Assembly: GCF_947495715.1 (NCBI RefSeq)
Contig: NZ_CANLZU010000001.1
Location: forward strand, 62,001-126,000
DNA: 64,000 nt
Source of the DNA: an uncultured Oceanisphaera sp.
GTDB taxonomy: Bacteria; Pseudomonadota; Gammaproteobacteria; Enterobacterales; Aeromonadaceae
Direction of reading: 5' to 3'
The position numbers and the translations under genes were made by a program. Every line of letters starts with the position of its first letter. Within the stretch, counting starts at the first letter, position 1. The notes under the pieces were generated by a model. That model did no database searches and had not been told where the DNA came from. It saw nothing but the letters and a program-made list of their open reading frames with translations. Of this stretch, positions 6,103 to 58,017 are shown piece by piece.

Positions 6103-6669
6103 ATGTCCGTTGCTATCAACACCGAAATCAAACCCTTCACCGCTCAGGCCTATCACAAGGGCAACTTTGTGGAGGTGACCGAAGCCCATCTGAAAGACAA
6201 GTGGTCCGTGGTGTTCTTCTACCCGGCCGATTTCACCTTCGTCTGCCCCACCGAGCTGGGTGATCTGGCCGATCATTACGCCGAGCTGCAGCGCATGGGC
6301 GTAGAAGTATTCTCGGTTTCTACCGATACCCACTTCACTCACAAGGCATGGCACGACAGCTCCGACACCATCGGCAAAATCCAGTACTACATGGTGGGCG
6401 ATCAGACCGGCACCATCACCAACAACTTTGGCGTCATGCGTGAAGGCCAGGGCCTGGCGGATCGCGCCACCTTTATCATCGATCCGCAGGGCGTGATCCA
6501 GGCCATCGAAGTGACCGCCGAAGGCATAGGCCGTGATGCCTCCGATCTGGTGCGCAAGATCAAGGCTGCCCAGTATGTTGCCGCCCATCCGGGCGAGGTT
6601 TGCCCCGCCAAATGGCAGGAAGGCGACGCCACGCTGGCTCCGTCTCTGGATCTGGTCGGCAAGATCTAA
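6103..6669 (+). CDS. ahpC: Alkyl hydroperoxide reductase peroxiredoxin subunit
   Basis: Typical 2-Cys peroxiredoxin of 188 residues. It reduces H2O2, organic peroxides and peroxynitrite in the cytoplasm using electrons from AhpF. The peroxidatic cysteine is in FVCPTE (about residue 48) and the resolving cysteine in EVCPAKW (about 167). AAGGAG lies 5-6 bases before the ATG. It sits 200 bases before ahpF; an intergenic palindromic element lies between them and may affect read-through. Confidence 0.97.
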
Positions 6670-6699: not shown

Positions 6700-6801
6700 G
6701 AGGGACAGGGAGTCGTATAAGCCAACCGTCGATGGCATGGATGCCATCGCCGAGCATACAAGGAGGTACTTGCTGCGTGTTGGCGTAGCGGCGCCCTGCC
6801 C
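6700..6801 (+). repeat. Palindromic two-hairpin repeat element, copy A
   Basis: Lies between ahpC and ahpF. Contains the perfect hairpin CGATGGCA-TGGA-TGCCATCG (6730-6749), the family core GAGCATACAAGGAGGTACTT and outer arms GCCAAC/GTTGGC and CAGGG/CCCTG. The second internal hairpin is degenerate. Same family as the copies at 19.9, 20.1, 26.3, 40.3, 44.5, 53.9, 57.7 and 57.9 kb. Confidence 0.7.
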
Positions 6802-6872: not shown

Positions 6873-8414
6873 ATGTTAGATGCCAATCTCAAGCAACAGC
6901 TGGACACTTACCTGCAGAACATCGTCTCTCCCATCGAGATCAGCGTGTCCGGTGACCATAACCCCAAGTCCAGAGAATTACTCGAGCTGGCTGGCGAAAT
7001 CAGCCAACTCTCTCCCCATATCAGCCTGCGGGAAACCATCGGCAAGCGCACACCCAGCATGAGCATTGCCGCTGCCAATCAGGCCCCCCGCGTCAGCTTC
7101 GCCGGTATTCCCATGGGCCACGAATTTACGTCACTGGTACTGGCCCTGCTGCAAGCCGGCGGTCATCCGTCCAAGGTCGCCCCCGAGTTGCAGCAACAAA
7201 TCCGCAACCTCGAAGGCGAGTACCATTTTGAGACCTATATTTCCCTGTCCTGTCAGAACTGCCCGGATGTGGTGCAGGCATTGAACCTGATGGCCACCCT
7301 GAATACGAACATCACCCACGAGATGATCGACGGTGCCCTGTTCCAGGACGAAGTCAATCAGCGCCAGATCATGGCGGTACCCTCGGTATACCTGAACGGT
7401 GAGCATTTTGGTCAGGGCCGCATGAGCCTGGAAGAGATCGTTGGCAAGCTCGATACCGGCGCCGCCAGCCGCAAGGCCGCCGAGCTGAATGAACAGGCCC
7501 CCTTTGACGTACTGGTAGTAGGCGGCGGGCCCGCCGGTGCCGCGGCCGCCATTTATGCCGCCCGCAAGGGCATTCGTACCGGCCTGGTGGCCGAGCGCTT
7601 CGGCGGCCAGGTCATGGATACCGTCGGTATCGAAAACTTTATCTCGATCCCCTATACCGAAGGCCCCAAGCTGGCCGCCAGCCTGGAACAACACGTCAGG
7701 GAATACGGGGTAGAACTGATCACCGATCAGCGCGCCGCCGGTATTACTCGGGGCGAACTCATCGAAATCCCGCTGGCCAGTGGTGCTACTCTCAAGAGCC
7801 GTTCGGTGATTTTGGCGACCGGCGCCCGCTGGCGCGAGCTGAATGTACCCGGCGAAACGGAATACCGTAACAAGGGCGTGGCCTACTGCCCCCACTGCGA
7901 CGGGCCCTTCTTCAAGGGCAAGCGGGTGGCGGTGGTCGGTGGCGGTAACTCGGGCATTGAAGCGGCCATCGATCTGGCCGGGCTGGTCGAGCATGTCACC
8001 GTGGTGGAGTTTGCCGATACCCTGCGCGCCGACGAGGTCTTACAGCGCAAGGCGCGCGCCATGGGCAATATCGACATCATCACCAACGCCCAGACCACAA
8101 AGGTGGTGGGTGACGGCAACAAGGTGACCGGCATGCACTATACCGACCGTGTCGGTGGCGAGAACAAACAATTGAATGTGGCCGGCATCTTCGTGCAGAT
8201 AGGGCTGGTGCCCAATACCGAATTTCTGCAGGGATCGGAAGTCGAGCTGACCCGCGTTGGCGAGGTGATGATCGACGCCAAAGGCGCCACCTCCATGACC
8301 GGCGTGTTCGCCGCCGGTGACGCCACTACCGTGCCCTACAAGCAAATCGTGATTTCCATGGGTGCCGGTGCCACCGCCGCCCTCGGCGCCTTCGATCACC
8401 TGATCCGCTCGTAA
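6873..8414 (+). CDS. ahpF: Alkyl hydroperoxide reductase flavoprotein subunit
   Basis: NADH-dependent disulfide reductase that recycles AhpC. Its 513 residues contain the N-terminal tandem thioredoxin-like domain with the SCQNC redox centre (about 128-132), the FAD-binding [10 protein letters not shown] motif and the second redox centre CPHCDGP, then the NADH-binding [10 protein letters not shown] motif. Downstream of ahpC in the OxyR-controlled unit. It converges on ndpA across a heptamer array. Confidence 0.96.
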
Positions 8415-8417
8415 AAC

Positions 8418-8477
8418 CGGGAATGGGGAATGGGGAATGGGGAAGAGGGACTCCCCATTCCCTGATCCCTAGTCCCC
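8418..8477. repeat. Period-7 repeat array between convergent ahpF and ndpA
   Basis: Eight consecutive 7-base units in one register: CGGGAAT, GGGGAAT twice, GGGGAAG, AGGGACT, then CCCCATT, CCCTGAT, CCCTAGT and CCCC. The G-rich left half can pair with the C-rich right half. The ndpA stop codon (TAG on the minus strand, 8471-8469) lies inside the array. Confidence 0.85.
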
Positions 8478-19820: not shown

Positions 19821-19854
19821 GCCTGTCTCTTGGTCACAGATCAACGTGTGGAAT

Positions 19855-19970
19855 AAGAGGCAACAGGGTTGCCTCCTCCGACACGCTGCAAGCACGTCCC
19901 TGTGACGCTCAGCAAATGCCATCCCTGGCATTTGACGGTCGGCTGAGGCAATCCCTGTTGCCTCTCCTTA
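19855..19970. repeat. Palindromic two-hairpin repeat element, copy B1
   Basis: Outer arms AAGAGGCAACAGGGTTGCC and CAATCCCTGTTGCCTCT form a long inverted repeat; inner CCGAC / GTCGG pair. Internal hairpin AAATGCCA-TCCC-TGGCATTT (19914-19933) is the family hairpin in reverse orientation. Part of the 574-base gap between the DUF2069 gene and the ABC importer, which holds no gene I can support. Confidence 0.75.
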
Positions 19971-20020: not shown

Positions 20021-20125
20021 CGGATGAAGGGTTCTACTCCAGCGAGCATCACATGACAGGACGTCATGTGCTGAGCGTCGCAGGGATGCGGTTTAGCGTG
20101 TCGGTGGAGTTGACCCTTCGTTCGA
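20021..20125. repeat. Palindromic two-hairpin repeat element, copy B2 (opposite orientation to B1)
   Basis: Arms CGGATGAAGGGTTCTACTCC (20021-20040) and GGAGTTGACCCTTCGTTCG (20107-20125). Internal hairpins CACATGAC-AGGAC-GTCATGTG (20050-20070) and CGCA-GGGA-TGCG (20079-20090). Shares TGAGCGTC and GCGTGTCGGTGGAG with copy C in the opposite sense. Confidence 0.75.
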
Positions 20126-20187
20126 CCTTTACAGGGCAACTAAATAGACCAGTTAGTTTTCCAGATTGGTATAACAGGCAACGATAG

Positions 20188-24763: not shown

Positions 24764-25031
24764 TAGGGTCTGTTGACCTTTCGAGATGATTTTTGCAGCA
24801 GTTTGTGGGGGCTTGATACAAGGCAGCGCTTATGCCATGTAGTCACGCTACATAAATAAGCGATAACGCAGTAGCAAGCCCCCACAAGCGCTGCCCTGCG
24901 GGTTCGGCTAAACGCGCTTTTCTCTTTGTTGAGAGGGCTTTGCTTAGAATGGCTAGGCTACTCCCCTCTCGCCGCGATAAAAACGCGTTTAACTCGAACA
25001 AAATTTCACCGCGAAAGGTCAACAGACCCTA
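24764..25031. mobile_element. Non-autonomous MITE-like element, 268 bp, upstream of asd
   Basis: Perfect 20-bp terminal inverted repeats TAGGGTCTGTTGACCTTTCG (24764-24783) and its complement (25012-25031). If the outer TA is a target duplication, the true ends are GGGTCTG and CAGACCC with 18-bp repeats. A second perfect inverted pair TTGTGGGGGCTTG (24803-24815) / CAAGCCCCCACAA (24875-24887) lies inside. No transposase frame. Its right end is 40 bases before the asd ATG. The preceding 59 bases after lysO hold nothing notable. Confidence 0.85.
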
Positions 25032-26270: not shown

Positions 26271-26375
26271 CGGACAAAGGGCCCGCTCCACCGACCCGCT
26301 CAAGCACCTCCCTGTGACGCTCAGCACATGACATCCCTGTCATGTGATGGTCGGTGGAGCAGATCCCTTCGTCCT
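26271..26375. repeat. Palindromic two-hairpin repeat element, copy C
   Basis: Arms GGGCCCGCTCCACCGAC and GTCGGTGGAGCAGATCCC, with CGGACAAAG / CTTCGTCC outside. Internal perfect hairpin CACATGACA-TCCC-TGTCATGTG (26325-26346) and a weaker CACCTCCCTGTG (26306-26317). It is followed to about 26440 by the family linker (GCCGTCTGCGGGCACTCGG, then AAGAGGCAG) that also joins copies G1 and G2. It fills most of the 365-base asd-ycaO gap. Confidence 0.75.
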
Positions 26376-26542: not shown

Positions 26543-28300
26543 ATGAAAACCTTTATCCCCAGCAAAGACGCCGCGCTAGAGGATTCCATCAGCTATTTTC
26601 AGCAGCAGCTGAGTACCCTGGGCTTTGATATCGAGGAAGCCTCCTGGCTCAACCCGGTTCCCAATGTGTGGTCGGTACATATTCGCGACAAAGACTGCCC
26701 GCTGTGCTTCACCAACGGCAAGGGTGCCAGCAAAAAAGCGGCGCTGGCCTCGGCACTGGGTGAATATTTCGAGCGTCTGGCCACCAACTACTTCTTCGCC
26801 GATTTCTATCTGGGCCAGGACATAGCCAACGGCGACTTCGTGCACTACCCCAACGAAAAGTGGTTTACGCTGCCGGCCGACAACGGCCTGCCCGCCGGTG
26901 TGCTCGACGACTATACCCGCGGCTTTTACGATCCCGACGGCGAGCTGACCGCCGACATGCTGATCGATCTGCAGTCCGGCAACGAAGAACGTGGCATCTG
27001 TGCCCTGCCCTTCGAGCGTCAGGGTGATAACCAGACCGTGTATATTCCGATGAACATCGTCGGCAACCTCTATGTCTCCAACGGCATGAGCGCCGGCAAC
27101 ACCCGCACCGAGGCCCGGACTCAAGGGTTGTCCGAGGTGTTCGAGCGCCATATCAAGAACCGCATCATTGCCGAGCGTATCAGCCTGCCGGCCATTCCGG
27201 CCGAGGTGATGGCCCGCTATCCGCATATTCAGGAGCCCATAGCGGCACTGGAAGCGGAAGGCTTCCCCATTCATGCCTTCGACGCCTCACTGGGCGGCGC
27301 TTATCCGGTGATCTGCGTGGTGTTGTTCAACCCGAGCAACAGCACCTGTTTTGCCTCCTTCGGTGCTCACCCGCGCTTCGAAGTGGCGCTGGAGCGTACC
27401 GTGACCGAGCTGCTGCAGGGCCGCAGCCTGAAGGATCTGGACGTGTTCGTGCCGCCGTCTTTCGAAGATGACGAAATTGCGGATCACCACAACCTGGAAA
27501 CCCACTTCATCGATTCTTCCGGCTTGATCAGCTGGGACATGTTCAAGGATGAGGCCGATTATGAATTTGCCGACTGGGACTTCAGCGGCAGCTCGGAGCA
27601 GGAATTCAATCACCTGATGGCCATCTTCAACCAGCTGGAGCAGCCGGTGTACATCGCCGATTACGAGCACCTGGGCGTGTATGCCTGTCGTATTCTGGTG
27701 CCCGGCATGTCCGATATCTACCCGGTAGAAGATTTGCAACTGGCCAACAACAGCATGGGCGCCGGCCTGCGCGCCACCCTGCTGAGCCTGCCGGCCAGCG
27801 ATGCGGACGCCGAGCAACTGATGGGCCTGTACGAACTGCTGGAAGAAGAAGGGCTGGACGACTTTACCCGGGTGCGCGAACTGATCGGCATAGCACCGAA
27901 CAAGGGCACCGCCTGGCATACCCTGCGGGTGGGCGAGCTCAAGTGCATGCTGGCACTGGCCGCCGGTGAGCAGGAAACCGCACTGGAATACGCCGACTGG
28001 ACCCTGAGCTTCAACGCATCTGTCTTTACCGACGAGCGCCATCGTTACTATCGCTGCCTGAAAGCGGCACTGGAACTGCACCTGTCGGAAGAGCGCGAAC
28101 CGGCCCAATACCGTTCGGCTTTCGAGAGCATGTTCGGTACCGACACCGTTGAACAGGTATGGCAGCAGCTGGACGGCAGCGCCCGTTTCCACGGTCTGAC
28201 CCTGGCCGACGAAAGCCTGCAGGACTTTGCCGCCCATCAGGCGCTGCTGGCCACCTACGAAAAACTGCAAAACGCCAAGCGTAAAGCCAGCTGGAAGTAA
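26543..28300 (+). CDS. ycaO: YcaO-domain protein, RimO-associated type
   Basis: 585 residues, close in length and sequence pattern to E. coli YcaO (DSISYFQQQLSTLGFDIEEA, SWLNPVPNVWSVHIRD), with the ATP-binding YcaO domain in the N-terminal half and a TPR-like C-terminal region. E. coli YcaO binds ATP and promotes RimO-dependent methylthiolation of ribosomal protein S12; it is not a bacteriocin cyclodehydratase. AAGGA precedes the ATG at 26543. No precursor peptide is visible nearby. Confidence 0.93.
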   Translation: MKTFIPSKDAALEDSISYFQQQLSTLGFDIEEASWLNPVPNVWSVHIRDKDCPLCFTNGKGASKKAALASALGEYFERLATNYFFADFYLGQDIANGDFVHYPNEKWFTLPADNGLPAGVLDDYTRGFYDPDGELTADMLIDLQSGNEERGICALPFERQGDNQTVYIPMNIVGNLYVSNGMSAGNTRTEARTQGLSEVFERHIKNRIIAERISLPAIPAEVMARYPHIQEPIAALEAEGFPIHAFDASLGGAYPVICVVLFNPSNSTCFASFGAHPRFEVALERTVTELLQGRSLKDLDVFVPPSFEDDEIADHHNLETHFIDSSGLISWDMFKDEADYEFADWDFSGSSEQEFNHLMAIFNQLEQPVYIADYEHLGVYACRILVPGMSDIYPVEDLQLANNSMGAGLRATLLSLPASDADAEQLMGLYELLEEEGLDDFTRVRELIGIAPNKGTAWHTLRVGELKCMLALAAGEQETALEYADWTLSFNASVFTDERHRYYRCLKAALELHLSEEREPAQYRSAFESMFGTDTVEQVWQQLDGSARFHGLTLADESLQDFAAHQALLATYEKLQNAKRKASWK

Positions 28301-28304
28301 GAGC

Positions 28305-28386
28305 CGGGACTGGGGACTGGGGACTGGGGACTGGGGACTGGGGACTGGGGACTGGGGACTGGGGACTGGGGACTGGGGACTGGGGA
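28305..28386 (+). repeat. Tandem GGGGACT heptamer array (10 perfect copies)
   Basis: One CGGGACT, ten exact GGGGACT units (28312-28381), then GGGGATA. Starts five bases after the ycaO stop. With eleven G4 tracts separated by three bases, the plus strand can form G-quadruplexes. C-rich partner heptamers lie at 28525-28552. Confidence 0.95.
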
Positions 28387-28394
28387 TATTGTAG

Positions 28395-28413
28395 GCCCGG
28401 GTTTATCCCGGGC
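28395..28413. repeat. GC hairpin inside the ycaO/ScsC-like junction
   Basis: GCCCGGG-TTTAT-CCCGGGC, 7-bp perfect stem and 5-base loop. Not followed by a T tract. Confidence 0.6.
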
Positions 28414-33350: not shown

Positions 33351-33362
33351 TCATAGCCGGGC

Positions 33363-33463
33363 CGGGAATGGGGAATGGGGAATGGGGAATGGCAGGGTAA
33401 ACTTTCGAATCCCAAGTCCCTAATCCCTAGTCCCTCATCCCTAATCCCTAATTCCTAATCCCC
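33363..33463. repeat. Period-7 array between convergent crbR and crbS
   Basis: Left: CGGGAAT and three GGGGAAT (33363-33390). Right: CCCAAGT, CCCTAAT, CCCTAGT, CCCTCAT, CCCTAAT twice, TCCTAAT, CCCC (33411-33463). The crbS stop codon (33457-33455) lies in the right half. Confidence 0.88.
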
Positions 33464-40269: not shown

Positions 40270-40286
40270 GCGACAGGCCGCAGGGA

Positions 40287-40387
40287 GGGCAAAGGGATCG
40301 GCTCAGCCGACCTTCCGTTTCAGGGACGAAACGGAGAGCGTACATGGATGTATTCATCGCGTGTCGGCAGAGTGGAGCCCTTTACCC
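40287..40387. repeat. Palindromic two-hairpin repeat element, copy D
   Basis: Arms GGGCAAAGGGATCGGCTCAG and TGGAGCCCTTTACCC with GCCGAC / GTCGGC. Internal hairpins CCGTTTC-AGGGAC-GAAACGG (40315-40334) and TACA-TGGA-TGTA (40341-40352), then the family core GCGTGTCGGC. Sits between ugpQ and rhlE. Confidence 0.8.
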
Positions 40388-42583: not shown

Positions 42584-43742
42584 AGTGCCGATGCCGCCGG
42601 TTCAGCCAGTGCACGCCGCCGCCGATCACCAGCCCCCAGAAGGCGCTGCCGATACCAAACAGCGCCAGGCCCGAGGCGGTGATCATGAAGGTCAGCAGCG
42701 CCGCATCCCGCTCCTGCTCGTTGGCCATGGCGACCGTCAGGCTGTTGCCGATGGTGCCGAGCAAGGCCAGGCCGGCGATGGCCATCACCAGCTCCGTTGG
42801 CAGGGCGGCAAACAGCCCCACCACGGTGGCACCAAACAAGCCCATCAACAGATAAAAGATCCCGGCCCACACCGCCGCCTTGTAGCGCTGGCCCGGACTG
42901 GCATCCACTTCCTTGCCCATGCAAATCGCCGCACTGATGGCCGCCAGATTAAGGGCAAAACCGCCGAAGGGCGCCAGCAGCAGGCCGGTAACGCCGGTCC
43001 AGCCGATTAGCGGTGATGCCGGTGTGTGATAGCCGTGAGCCCGCAGTACCGCCACCCCCGGCACATTCTGCGAGGCCATGGTCACCATGAACAGCGGAAT
43101 GCCGACACCGAGCAGTGTGGCAAGGGAGAAGCTCGGCAGCATCAGCACCGGCCGGGCCAGCTGCCACTCGAAGCCGTCGAAGCGCAGCAGACCGGCGCCC
43201 CCGGCCACAGCCAACCCGACCAGCAGGCTGAGCGGAATCACATAGCGCGGCCAGCGCCGACGCAGTGCCAGATAGGTCACCAGCATGGCCCCCACCAGCC
43301 AGGGCTGGGTCTCGGCCGAGGCAAACAAGTCCAGACCAAAGTTCAGCAGCACCCCACCCAGCATGGCCGCCGCCAGCCCTGCCGGCATCAGTCGCATGAT
43401 TTTATCGAACCAGCCGGTCACGCCGCACAGCAGGATCAACCCCGAGCTGAACAGAAAGGCACCGATGGCCTCGCTCATCGGCACCCCGGCCAGGGCGGTC
43501 ACCAGCAGTGCCGCCCCCGGCGTCGACCAGGCGGTGAGTATCGGCTCCCGGTAGCGCAGAGAAAACCAGATACTGGTCACCCCCGCCCCCAGCCCCAGCG
43601 CCCACGTCCAGGAACTGATTTCGGCCTGGCTGGCCCCGGCTGACGCCGCTGCCTGAAAAATAATGGCCGCCGAGCTGCTATAGCCCACCAGCACGGCGAT
43701 AAAACCGGCGGAAAAATGAGAAAGACTGATGGCCGCACGCAT
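42582..43742 (-). CDS. benE: BenE family benzoate/H+ symporter-like protein (YdcO)
   Basis: 386 residues with about twelve membrane helices, beginning MRAAISLSHFSAGFIAVLVG, typical of BenE/YdcO. Benzoate is the known substrate for BenE of Acinetobacter; YdcO of enterics has no proven substrate, and no benzoate-degradation gene is near. The divergent pairing with a SutR/YdcN-type regulator matches E. coli ydcN-ydcO. Confidence 0.87.
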   Translation of the reverse strand: MRAAISLSHFSAGFIAVLVGYSSSAAIIFQAAASAGASQAEISSWTWALGLGAGVTSIWFSLRYREPILTAWSTPGAALLVTALAGVPMSEAIGAFLFSSGLILLCGVTGWFDKIMRLMPAGLAAAMLGGVLLNFGLDLFASAETQPWLVGAMLVTYLALRRRWPRYVIPLSLLVGLAVAGGAGLLRFDGFEWQLARPVLMLPSFSLATLLGVGIPLFMVTMASQNVPGVAVLRAHGYHTPASPLIGWTGVTGLLLAPFGGFALNLAAISAAICMGKEVDASPGQRYKAAVWAGIFYLLMGLFGATVVGLFAALPTELVMAIAGLALLGTIGNSLTVAMANEQERDAALLTFMITASGLALFGIGSAFWGLVIGGGVHWLNRRHRH

Positions 43743-43769
43743 GTGGAGTACCCTGAGTTGATGAGTTTG

Positions 43770-43785
43770 TACGTTATAACGCACA
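43770..43785. promoter_or_regulatory. Candidate SutR operator 1
   Basis: GTACGTTATAACGCAC with a perfect CGTTATAACG palindrome, in the benE/sutR divergent gap. Confidence 0.5.
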
Positions 43786-43806
43786 GAAAATTCATGCTAG
43801 CAAAGG

Positions 43807-43822
43807 TATGCTATAACGCACA
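43807..43822. promoter_or_regulatory. Candidate SutR operator 2
   Basis: GTATGCTATAACGCAC, 14 of 16 bases identical to operator 1 and 37 bases further on, just upstream of sutR. Confidence 0.5.
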
Positions 43823-43850
43823 ACCACCAAATTCAGTCAGGAAGCGTCTC

Positions 43851-44426
43851 ATGCCGGAGCCCAATCAATACCTTGCCACCCGCCTGCGAGCACAGCGTCA
43901 ACAGCGGGGCTGGAGCCTGGACCGCTGCGCCGCCGAAACCGGGGTCAGCAAGGCCATGCTGGGCCAGATTGAACGGGGCGAGTCCAGCCCCACCGTTGCC
44001 ACCCTGTGGAAGATCGCCGGTGGGTTCAACACCTCGTTGTCGACCTTTCTGGAGCCGACGCCCGAGCCAGATTCCGGCCCGCTCTACCGACAACCGGACA
44101 CACTGCGCCAGCAACCGGCCGGTGACGGCATGCTGGTGGCGCCGCTGTTTCCCTTTGAAGCCAGATTTGGTTTCGAGATGCTGGAGCTGACGCTGCTGCC
44201 CGGCTATGAACGCCGTTCGGAGCCGCACGAAAGCGGCGTCATCGAGCATGTCATCGTGCAACGGGGAGAAATGGAATTGTTACTGGAAGGGCACTGGCAG
44301 CCGCTGGCGCCGGGCGCGGCAGTGCGTTTTCACGCCGACCGGCCTCACGGTTATCGCAACCAGGGCGAGACGCCGGTGGTGTTTTACAACCTGATCCACT
44401 ACCCCGCCCACAAGCCTGACTCCTGA
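43851..44426 (+). CDS. sutR: XRE-cupin transcriptional regulator, SutR/YdcN-like
   Basis: 191 residues: an N-terminal helix-turn-helix (~10-65; WSLDRCAAETGVSKAMLGQI, ERGESSPTVATLWKIA) and a C-terminal cupin (~110-185). SutR in E. coli regulates sulfur-utilisation genes. AGGAAG precedes the ATG at 43851. Divergent from benE, with two matching operator-like sites in the gap. Confidence 0.88.
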   Translation: MPEPNQYLATRLRAQRQQRGWSLDRCAAETGVSKAMLGQIERGESSPTVATLWKIAGGFNTSLSTFLEPTPEPDSGPLYRQPDTLRQQPAGDGMLVAPLFPFEARFGFEMLELTLLPGYERRSEPHESGVIEHVIVQRGEMELLLEGHWQPLAPGAAVRFHADRPHGYRNQGETPVVFYNLIHYPAHKPDS

Positions 44427-44471: not shown

Positions 44472-44574
44472 GGATAAAGGGATCTGCTCCGTCGACCCTC
44501 CGCGCCAGGGATGGCGCGGCGGAGCCCCCATGGATGGGTTTACGGCGAGTCGGCGGAGCGGGCCCTTTGTCCGA
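44472..44574. repeat. Palindromic two-hairpin repeat element, copy E
   Basis: Arms AAAGGGATCTGCTCC and GGAGCGGGCCCTTT with GTCGAC / GTCGGC. Internal hairpins CCGCGCCA-GGGA-TGGCGCGG (44500-44519) and CCCA-TGGA-TGGG (44527-44538). Lies between convergent sutR and the CBS gene. Confidence 0.82.
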
Positions 44575-52515: not shown

Positions 52516-52724
52516 CCCGATCGCAGGGATGCGATCCTGTCTCTTTCTACCCCCTTTTTTCTTTTCGTTTATTTCAGCCCTCCCCTTTTCTGTGACCGCA
52601 CTCGCAGTTGAACACCATCATCATTAACAAATGTGAAACCATTAGGTAACTTCACGACCTGAAATAAATGAATACAAAAAACTCATAAAACGCACACACG
52701 CCGAGACAAATGAAGGACAACACC

Positions 52725-53827: not shown

Positions 53828-53871
53828 CTTGATTCCCGAGTCGTCTGCCGGCTGCATCGAGGCCTATAAGA

Positions 53872-53936
53872 GGAGCAAAGCGATCTGCTCTGCCGACCTT
53901 CTATTACGGCGAGTCGGCGGAGCTGGCCCTTTGCCC
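53872..53936. repeat. Palindromic repeat element, copy F (internal hairpins deleted)
   Basis: Arms GGAGCAAAGCGATCTGCTC and GGAGCTGGCCCTTTGCCC with GCCGAC / GTCGGC match copies D, E and G1, but only about 15 bases (CTTCTATTACGGCGA) remain between them. Fills much of the 344-base gap before ettA; 53937-54138 shows nothing clear. Confidence 0.75.
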
Positions 53937-54138
53937 GACTTGCATGAACATTCAAAGTACCGCACCCTCGTGAAATTCCCGTTTCTCCGCTTTCGGACAC
54001 TGGCATTCCCCGCCCAGCCAAGTACCATATAGCGCCATGGCCCTGCGTTGGCCGCAGGTTTGGCATACCTGGCACAGCCTGCCACCATCACCTGTCAAGA
54101 CGGCCTGTCAACTCACTGATTTATCAGGACAATCATAA

Positions 54139-57314: not shown

Positions 57315-57628
57315 CACTGGAAACCGCCGGTTCAGGCACCCTGCTGATTATCGGCGTCATGGCCGTCGTGACCCTGGCCACCCGCTGGGGCGGCGTTTTC
57401 GTGATGTCGCTGATCCCCATCAACCATAGGGTGCAGCAGTTTATCAGCGCCATGTCCGGCTCGGTACTGGTGGCCATTCTGACGCCGCTGGCGGTCAACG
57501 GCGATATCGGCGCCCGCATGGCGCTGCTGGCCACGGCACTGACCATGCTGGTGCTGAAAAAGCCGCTGCCGGCCATTACCGCCGGTATCATAGCCGCGGC
57601 GCTCAGCCGACACTTCTTCGGCGGTTAA
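57311..57628 (+). CDS. azlD: AzlD family exporter small subunit
   Basis: 105 residues, about four helices; pairs with AzlC. The ATG at 57311 overlaps the azlC stop. In a +1-shifted frame the open reading continues back to 56453, but the codons before 57311 are only the azlC shadow. Confidence 0.87.
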   Translation: MTLETAGSGTLLIIGVMAVVTLATRWGGVFVMSLIPINHRVQQFISAMSGSVLVAILTPLAVNGDIGARMALLATALTMLVLKKPLPAITAGIIAAALSRHFFGG

Positions 57629-57656
57629 CCGCCAATAGTGCTGCTAAACGTTGATA

Positions 57657-57762
57657 TGTCGGCCAAAGGGCCCGCTCCGCCGACTCGCTATGAATACATC
57701 CATGTACGCTCTCTGTTTCATCCATGAAACAGAAGGTCGGCTGAGCAGATCCCTTTGCCCTC
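57657..57762. repeat. Palindromic two-hairpin repeat element, copy G1
   Basis: Arms CAAAGGGCCCGCTCCGCCGA and TCGGCTGAGCAGATCCCTTT. Internal hairpins TACA-TCCA-TGTA (57695-57706) and CTGTTTCA-TCCA-TGAAACAG (57713-57732): the family order in reverse orientation. First of a pair in the 406-base azlD/PhyH gap. Confidence 0.85.
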
Positions 57763-57815
57763 CTTGATACAGCCGGGTCGTCTGTTAACACCTCCTGCGG
57801 ATAACTCGGCGCTCC

Positions 57816-57925
57816 AAAAGAGGTAACAGAGATCGCCTCCCACGACCGTGAAATACCATGGATGGTATTTCCGAGCATACAGGGATGTACTCGTAGCGTG
57901 TCGTGAGAGGCGGCTGTGTTGCCTC
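57816..57925. repeat. Palindromic two-hairpin repeat element, copy G2
   Basis: Arms AGAGGTAACAGAGATCGCC and GGCGGCTGTGTTGCCTC with CACGAC / GTCGTG. Internal hairpins AAATACCA-TGGA-TGGTATTT (57851-57870) and TACA-GGGA-TGTA (57878-57889). Opposite orientation to G1, joined to it by the linker GTCGTCTGTTAACACCTCC and CTCGGCGCTCC. Confidence 0.85.
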
Positions 57926-57991
57926 AGGAGTGAGGACTCTGAATATGCACACATACTGGATGTAACTGGTCTAATCGCCGCCGTTCAATGC

Positions 57992-58017
57992 AAAAGCCCG
58001 CCGTATGGCGGGCTTTT
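57992..58017. terminator. Terminator between azlCD and the PhyH gene
   Basis: AAAA-GCCCGCC-GTAT-GGCGGGC-TTTT, usable in both directions; on the minus strand it follows the PhyH gene. Confidence 0.9.

Follow-up and report, generated by a model that had tools for sequence, protein, structure and literature searches.

A mobile family of Y-shaped palindromes with paired ANGGAN loops in gammaproteobacteria, possibly a two-site CsrA-type RNA module

Nine long palindromes recur across the window, by which we mean the whole 64,000-nucleotide stretch of DNA from an uncultured Oceanisphaera sp. analysed here, and they raise the question of what kind of element they are and why their stems stay paired. 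A preliminary description had read them as one family with two internal hairpins and compensatory changes around a fixed loop. All nine places indeed hold a copy of one repeat (Table 1), and eight of them, with E values from 4.9e-16 to 3.5e-6, are recovered by a covariance model (R1) built from 34 sequences of other genera only. These eight copies fit a single three-way-junction fold with both hairpins; the ninth, at 53.9 kb, is missed by R1 and consists of outer arms alone, so that the two internal hairpins hold for eight copies and not for all. The interval 57657-57925, singled out earlier, does contain two copies in opposite orientation, and comparison with relatives shows that the inserted piece is longer (57637-57972). 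Outer arms of the AAAGGG type, described as prevailing, are one of two main types, the other being the GGCAACAG type. Three features had escaped notice: that the loops match a CsrA site, that the units lie in transposons and that they form divergent pairs.

Table 1. Copies of the repeat and associated features in the window (R1, covariance model from other genera).
Feature	Position	Strand	Remarks
Y-unit	6706..6798	+	R1 E 1.8e-13; 23 bp after peroxiredoxin-like gene 6103-6669 (Pfam AhpC-TSA match)
Left terminal repeat of 20-kb pair, CTGTCTCTTGGTCACA	19823..19838	+	Same ends bound whole elements elsewhere
Y-unit, left half of divergent pair	19864..19957	-	R1 E 1.1e-11
Y-unit, right half of 19864/20119 pair	20026..20119	+	R1 E 3.5e-6
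Right terminal repeat of 20-kb pair, TTATACCAAT, other end type	20165..20174	-	
Y-unit	26276..26369	-	R1 E 1.2e-9; partner mostly lost in the window, present in relative G177 (alignment)
Single Y-unit insertion, CCG both sides	40281..40385	+	R1 40292-40382 E 5.6e-15
Y-unit after HTH/cupin gene 43716-44426 (Pfam)	44477..44568	+	R1 E 1.3e-15
Remnant, outer arms only, both hairpins missing	53870..53938	+	No R1 match
Whole inserted element: two divergent Y-units and linker, AAT both sides	57637..57972	.	Empty-site comparison
Y-unit, both loops ATGGAT	57665..57755	-	R1 E 4.9e-16
Y-unit, loops ATGGAT and AGGGAT	57827..57918	+	R1 E 2.5e-13

Read on the strand that carries GGA, a unit has an outer stem some 20 pairs long, interrupted by fixed mismatches, from which a hairpin with a variable stem (hairpin A) and one with a short stem (hairpin B) branch off to give a Y shape. 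R1 retrieved 114 units from 74 sources of the window's genus, and in these GGA lies in loop A of 110 and in loop B of 112. The loop of both hairpins is A-N-G-G-A-N, with the A and the GGA nearly invariant and both N free: among loops of six nucleotides, the fixed positions A, G, G and A are kept in 96, 95, 93 and 95 of 96 cases in hairpin A and in 110, 111, 111 and 109 of 111 in hairpin B, the second base takes all four values, as does the last in hairpin B, whereas the last in hairpin A takes three. The apex CA-[G/T]GGA-TG given earlier was thus too narrow, as the AGGGAC loop of the 40.3 kb copy and the short hairpin A loop CAGGACG of the unit at 20026..20119 illustrate. The two GGA motifs are 18-22 nt apart in all 109 of the 114 units that have both (20 on the columns of alignment A2), and ANGGAN is also found in hairpin A of 89 of 115 rows from other genera. 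Counting both strands, 78 hairpins in the window combine a 6-nt loop with six or more Watson-Crick pairs; eight have an ANGGAN loop, compared with about 0.3 expected for random loops by our own arithmetic, and seven of these eight fall inside copies. An isolated hairpin at 52520-52537, GATCGCAGGGATGCGATC, also has an ANGGAN loop and lies outside any full unit. The window further contains arrays of 7-base units, e.g. GGGGACT, GGGGAAT and TAATCCC, at 28292-28400, 8405-8476 and 33357-33462.

The pairing of the stems was assessed separately in other genera and in the window's genus. From 115 rows of other genera, 34 were retained after 53 with other geometry and 28 near-duplicates had been dropped, and 94.2% of the cells in this alignment are paired. 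Its covariation score is 0.748, compared with 0.169 (sd 0.013) after shuffling and at most 0.147 with the partners slid, and two of the five measures exceed shuffling weakly: pairs changed on both sides (23 versus 21.1, reached by 52 of 500 shuffles) and further pair types (78 versus 71.2, reached by 11 of 500). In the 114 units of the window's genus, an alignment that was fitted to the model and is hence biased towards pairs, the score is 0.549 versus 0.153 (sd 0.006) for shuffled data, and 28 of the 32 pairs show changes in both partners, a number that no shuffle reaches. Compensatory change around a fixed loop holds in both sets, in support of the preliminary description. The objection raised there, that the stems might go back to recent copying of a few master sequences, has some force within the genus, where few stem types dominate (TCTGTTTCA occurs in 19 of 115 hairpins, with 46 distinct arms); in other genera, by contrast, the outer arms are very diverse and nevertheless pair in 94.9% of cells.

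If the arms were kept complementary by repair of one against the other alone, G.T and A.C mismatches should be equally frequent on the GGA strand. Among the 34 representatives of other genera we counted 34 G.T against 7 A.C mismatches, for which p is 2.5e-5 on the assumption of independent cells, although the cells are not fully independent. A hand count over the eight outer columns that had not been used for choosing the register gave 16 against 1, and over all rows the outer stems showed 41 against 12 and hairpin A 15 against 4. The well-paired columns of the window's genus had 57 against 21, with A/G as the most frequent other mismatch (36 cells). For hairpin A of this genus the count of 12 G.T and 13 A.C does not favour a strand-specific reading; nine of the 13 A.C occur at one position, which we think reflects short-loop copies out of register. 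The excess of G.T over A.C on the GGA strand indicates that one single strand is selected to stay foldable. The preliminary description had left the choice between DNA and RNA open; the excess fits RNA, and folded single-stranded DNA too, and does not by itself separate the two. The same test is applicable to other repeat families to distinguish selection on a folded strand from arm repair.

The family is spread across many gammaproteobacterial genera and is particularly abundant in the genome of the window. A 25-base core pattern, for which at most three mismatches were allowed, matches 157 times in this 3.65-Mb genome (never when reversed) and 28, 38 and 39 times in the three other genomes of the genus; it is absent from five genomes of a sister genus, and 19 of 148 sampled genomes of the order contain it, with few matches in the scattered others. 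Exact matches to a 28-base pattern, which fixes hairpin B so that no variation is visible there, include among those listed Marinobacter, Microbulbifer, Zobellella, Marinimicrobium, Sedimenticola, Alishewanella, Marinobacterium, Porticoccus and others. Across the phylum, the covariance model matched in 27 of 348 genomes, all 27 in the class of the window, in a survey that scored the best 12 first-look candidates per genome and may thus miss unit-poor genomes; one early scoring round covered 40 of 167 candidates. No name or function for the palindromes of Marinobacter, Microbulbifer, Zobellella and the other genera was found in the literature searched. Many units are also carried by the metagenome assemblies CAMBTO01 and CAMDWI01 (L155, L165 and other loci), whose label Klebsiella pneumoniae looks wrong, the unit type being otherwise seen in marine bacteria. 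At seven loci of one such assembly (L168, L189, L208, L225, L258, L259 and L266), many units have lost their left half to one constant stretch, which starts with TAACGGCTGGACTTTC; this looks as though a further element inserts into hairpin A.

The units are cargo of miniature transposable elements, and their mobility is documented by empty sites, target repeats and terminal repeats. The 89 clusters in the fetched stretches, which include one pair twice from two overlapping loci, comprise 44 '-+' pairs, 43 single units, two '++' pairs and no '+-' pair, and the two units of a pair are about 45 bp apart. In a comparison with four close relatives of 88-93% identity (G197, G191, G177 and G159), the site of the 57637-57972 insert is empty in G197 and G191; nearby, G177 has a different single unit and G159 other sequence. 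For the single unit at 40.3 kb, which was inserted without terminal repeats, a clean empty site exists in G177, and the unit is absent from G191 and G159 as well. Since its outer arms arrived with the insert, a derivation of the variable arms from the target site was rejected. Another element on contig 1 is flanked by a 13-bp direct repeat and has empty sites in G177 and G191.

Two terminal repeats are found at the ends of many elements: TTGGTAT and, in inward reading, CTGTCTCTTRGTCACA. The second type forms five inward-facing pairs of 269-454 bp that all hold unit sequence, with exact 9-bp target repeats in two of the five and no exact repeat in the other three. Ends of this type with 9-bp repeats resemble those of the IS50 group of the IS4 family, and from these ends we infer mobilisation in trans by an IS4/IS50-type transposase. 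Being short and non-coding, with inward-facing terminal inverted repeats, target repeats (9 bp in two of the five, 13 bp in one element, AAT in another) and empty sites in relatives, the elements show the features of miniature inverted-repeat elements (MITEs) that were examined. They differ from these in having as their body two structured units in a conserved divergent arrangement, which is found with two different end types, and in that single units occur in other genera. No autonomous parent was found in the genome of the window (82 contigs), nor was any IS-sized pair among its 22 matches to the second end type. The window also contains, at 24764-25031, a pair of 31-nt inverted repeats starting TAGGGTCTGTTGACC, 87% complementary and 206 nt apart, possibly another miniature element.

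The conserved loop and its spacing resemble known CsrA sites. According to the review PMC7652899, the SELEX consensus of CsrA is RUACARGGAUGU with fully conserved ACA and GGA and mostly six-base loops, the RsmE hexaloop is ANGGAN with variable N, and a CsrA dimer can bridge sites separated by 10-63 nt, best at more than 18. The loops of the units match the published CsrA/RsmE hexaloop at a spacing of 18-22 nt that a dimer can bridge, and hairpin B equals the consensus at 12 of 12 letters in 21 of the 34 other-genera representatives (with G at the R position) and likewise in the 57.9 kb copy. A single csrA is present in the host; its product is identical to the solved CsrA structure PDB 1y00_A at 51 of 52 residues. 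The CsrB family has three matches in this genome, two above the cut-off (94.7 and 84.3 bits) and a third below it. In the phylum sample, csrA is present in 27 of 27 unit-bearing genomes compared with 178 of 348 overall, a co-occurrence that may be ancestry because all 27 belong to one class; one genome, G312, has nine csrA matches. Several points weigh against this reading. The SELEX consensus has a purine before GGA, whereas in hairpin B pyrimidines and purines precede it almost equally often (T or C in 56, A or G in 55 of 111); most SELEX hairpins reported there have stems of four pairs or fewer, whereas those of hairpin A have at least seven; and folded single-stranded DNA would favour the G.T excess too.

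Like the CsrA-sequestering RNAs of the CsrB/RsmY/RsmZ type, of which the host has its own, the units present repeated GGA-loop hairpins suited to a CsrA dimer. Unlike these RNAs, they have two sites each and a long outer stem, are mobile and exist in well over a hundred copies. Membership of a known RNA family, CsrB included, was rejected, because no Rfam model matched at the units: nothing was found across the window at gathering score or over 57600-58000 at E values up to 1, and in eight loci of other genera, searched at E values up to 0.5, no known bacterial RNA coincided with a unit.

Our best reading, to which we assign a probability of about one half, is that the unit is a mobile two-site CsrA-type RNA module carried by miniature transposable elements. 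The GGA strand is predicted to fold into the Y, with its long outer stem and two ANGGAN-loop hairpins, and one CsrA dimer would bind both GGA loops of a unit. A full element carries two such units facing away from each other, and with this divergent arrangement one unit with two GGA loops would appear whichever strand is transcribed. Transcription of the units, their binding by CsrA and its effect are inferred from these features. Two effects seem likeliest: CsrA may bind transcripts that read through an element, and thereby alter their decay or translation or the way they terminate where genes end, or the many copies may jointly form a diffuse CsrA sponge. More tentatively, and with slightly less confidence than in the module as such, we suggest that transposable elements adopted the global regulator of their host, spreading with various ends, in many gammaproteobacteria, a two-site CsrA-binding RNA module that rewires CsrA regulons or, with growing copy number, soaks up CsrA. 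Sites for CsrA are usually attributed to individual mRNAs and a small number of sRNAs, and no paper linking them with mobile repeats was found in the open-licence literature. If the proposal is true, mobile two-site modules by the hundred would be a ready source of new regulatory links, titration of CsrA might be genome-wide, and the palindromes of Marinobacter, Microbulbifer, Zobellella and others would be explained.

The position of the units relative to genes bears on the CsrA reading and on its alternatives alike. Units favour gaps between convergent genes over those between divergent ones, 28 to 3 in the genome of the window compared with 19 to 24 for element-free gaps (Fisher p = 5.9e-5), and 32 to 10 compared with 25 to 64 in other genera (p = 2.4e-7). 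Between tandem genes, they show no bias towards the sense strand (9 to 8 and 25 to 23, respectively), an observation that speaks against the units routinely controlling the gene upstream of them. These counts rest on a gene caller that was retrained after earlier ones had missed known genes; it placed eight of nine Pfam-checked genes on the correct strand and still missed the gene preceding the 40.3 kb unit, making that unit falsely divergent in the counts. Clustering of the open reading frames that lie up to 3 kb from other-genera units revealed no recognised recurrent partner gene. At L145 and L146, two of the genome's three CsrB-family matches have elements nearby, at distances of about 410 and 70 bp.

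Among the comparisons considered, integron attC sites are defined by R and L core boxes, cassettes and an integrase. The Y-fold could be a single-strand structure for the transposition of the element itself, with the GGA loops read by some transposition protein, in the way that enzymes of the IS200/IS605 type read hairpins, and the likeness to CsrA sites coincidental. We regard this as unlikely, and as an explanation that still deserves serious weight: the units are mobile, the 40.3 kb unit was inserted without terminal repeats, the units lack a sense bias to genes, and the G.T excess would suit any folded single strand. Whole elements with IS-type ends and target repeats, however, need no hairpin for their movement, and the absence of a recurrent partner gene in other genera and of units from 30 RAYT-family loci also counts against it. 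This explanation also gives no reason for an ANGGAN loop with two free N or for the 18-22 nt spacing.

Functionless selfish miniature elements, in which replication or repair keeps the arms complementary by using one as the template for the other, appear improbable. Such elements might well show few stem types within a genus, and their convergent siting would be expected if insertions near promoters get removed; yet arm repair predicts equal G.T and A.C, which is at odds with 34:7, 41:12, 15:4 and 57:21, and a fixed A and GGA beside a free N in one loop are left unexplained. It is more doubtful still that the units are 3'-end structures which the host retains, independently of CsrA, to terminate transcription or to protect mRNA ends. 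The enrichment between convergent genes in both data sets would fit this, but a strong stem alone would then suffice, leaving the loop conservation without reason, and the insertions are polymorphic among close relatives.

That the units form a REP/BIME family mobilised by a RAYT transposase is very improbable: they do resemble one in being extragenic, palindromic, of high copy number and arranged in inverted pairs, and a broken RAYT-like remnant lies about 3.3 kb from units in the genome, but the units have two tandem GGA hairpins and, as whole elements, IS-type ends, none of the 30 RAYT-family loci has a unit in its 1.5-kb flanks, and the lone weak partial match sat at an IS605-type Y1 locus (L031). 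Searches with Y1_Tnp and the RAYT family gave no tie to the units, and this link was rejected. The same genome has, at L080 (1102-2208), a long Y1-type gene of 368 aa, which we take to be COG1943-like and upstream of which GGGTGTCC motifs recur; relatives of this gene in L081 and L082 have motifs of a similar kind on their flanks.
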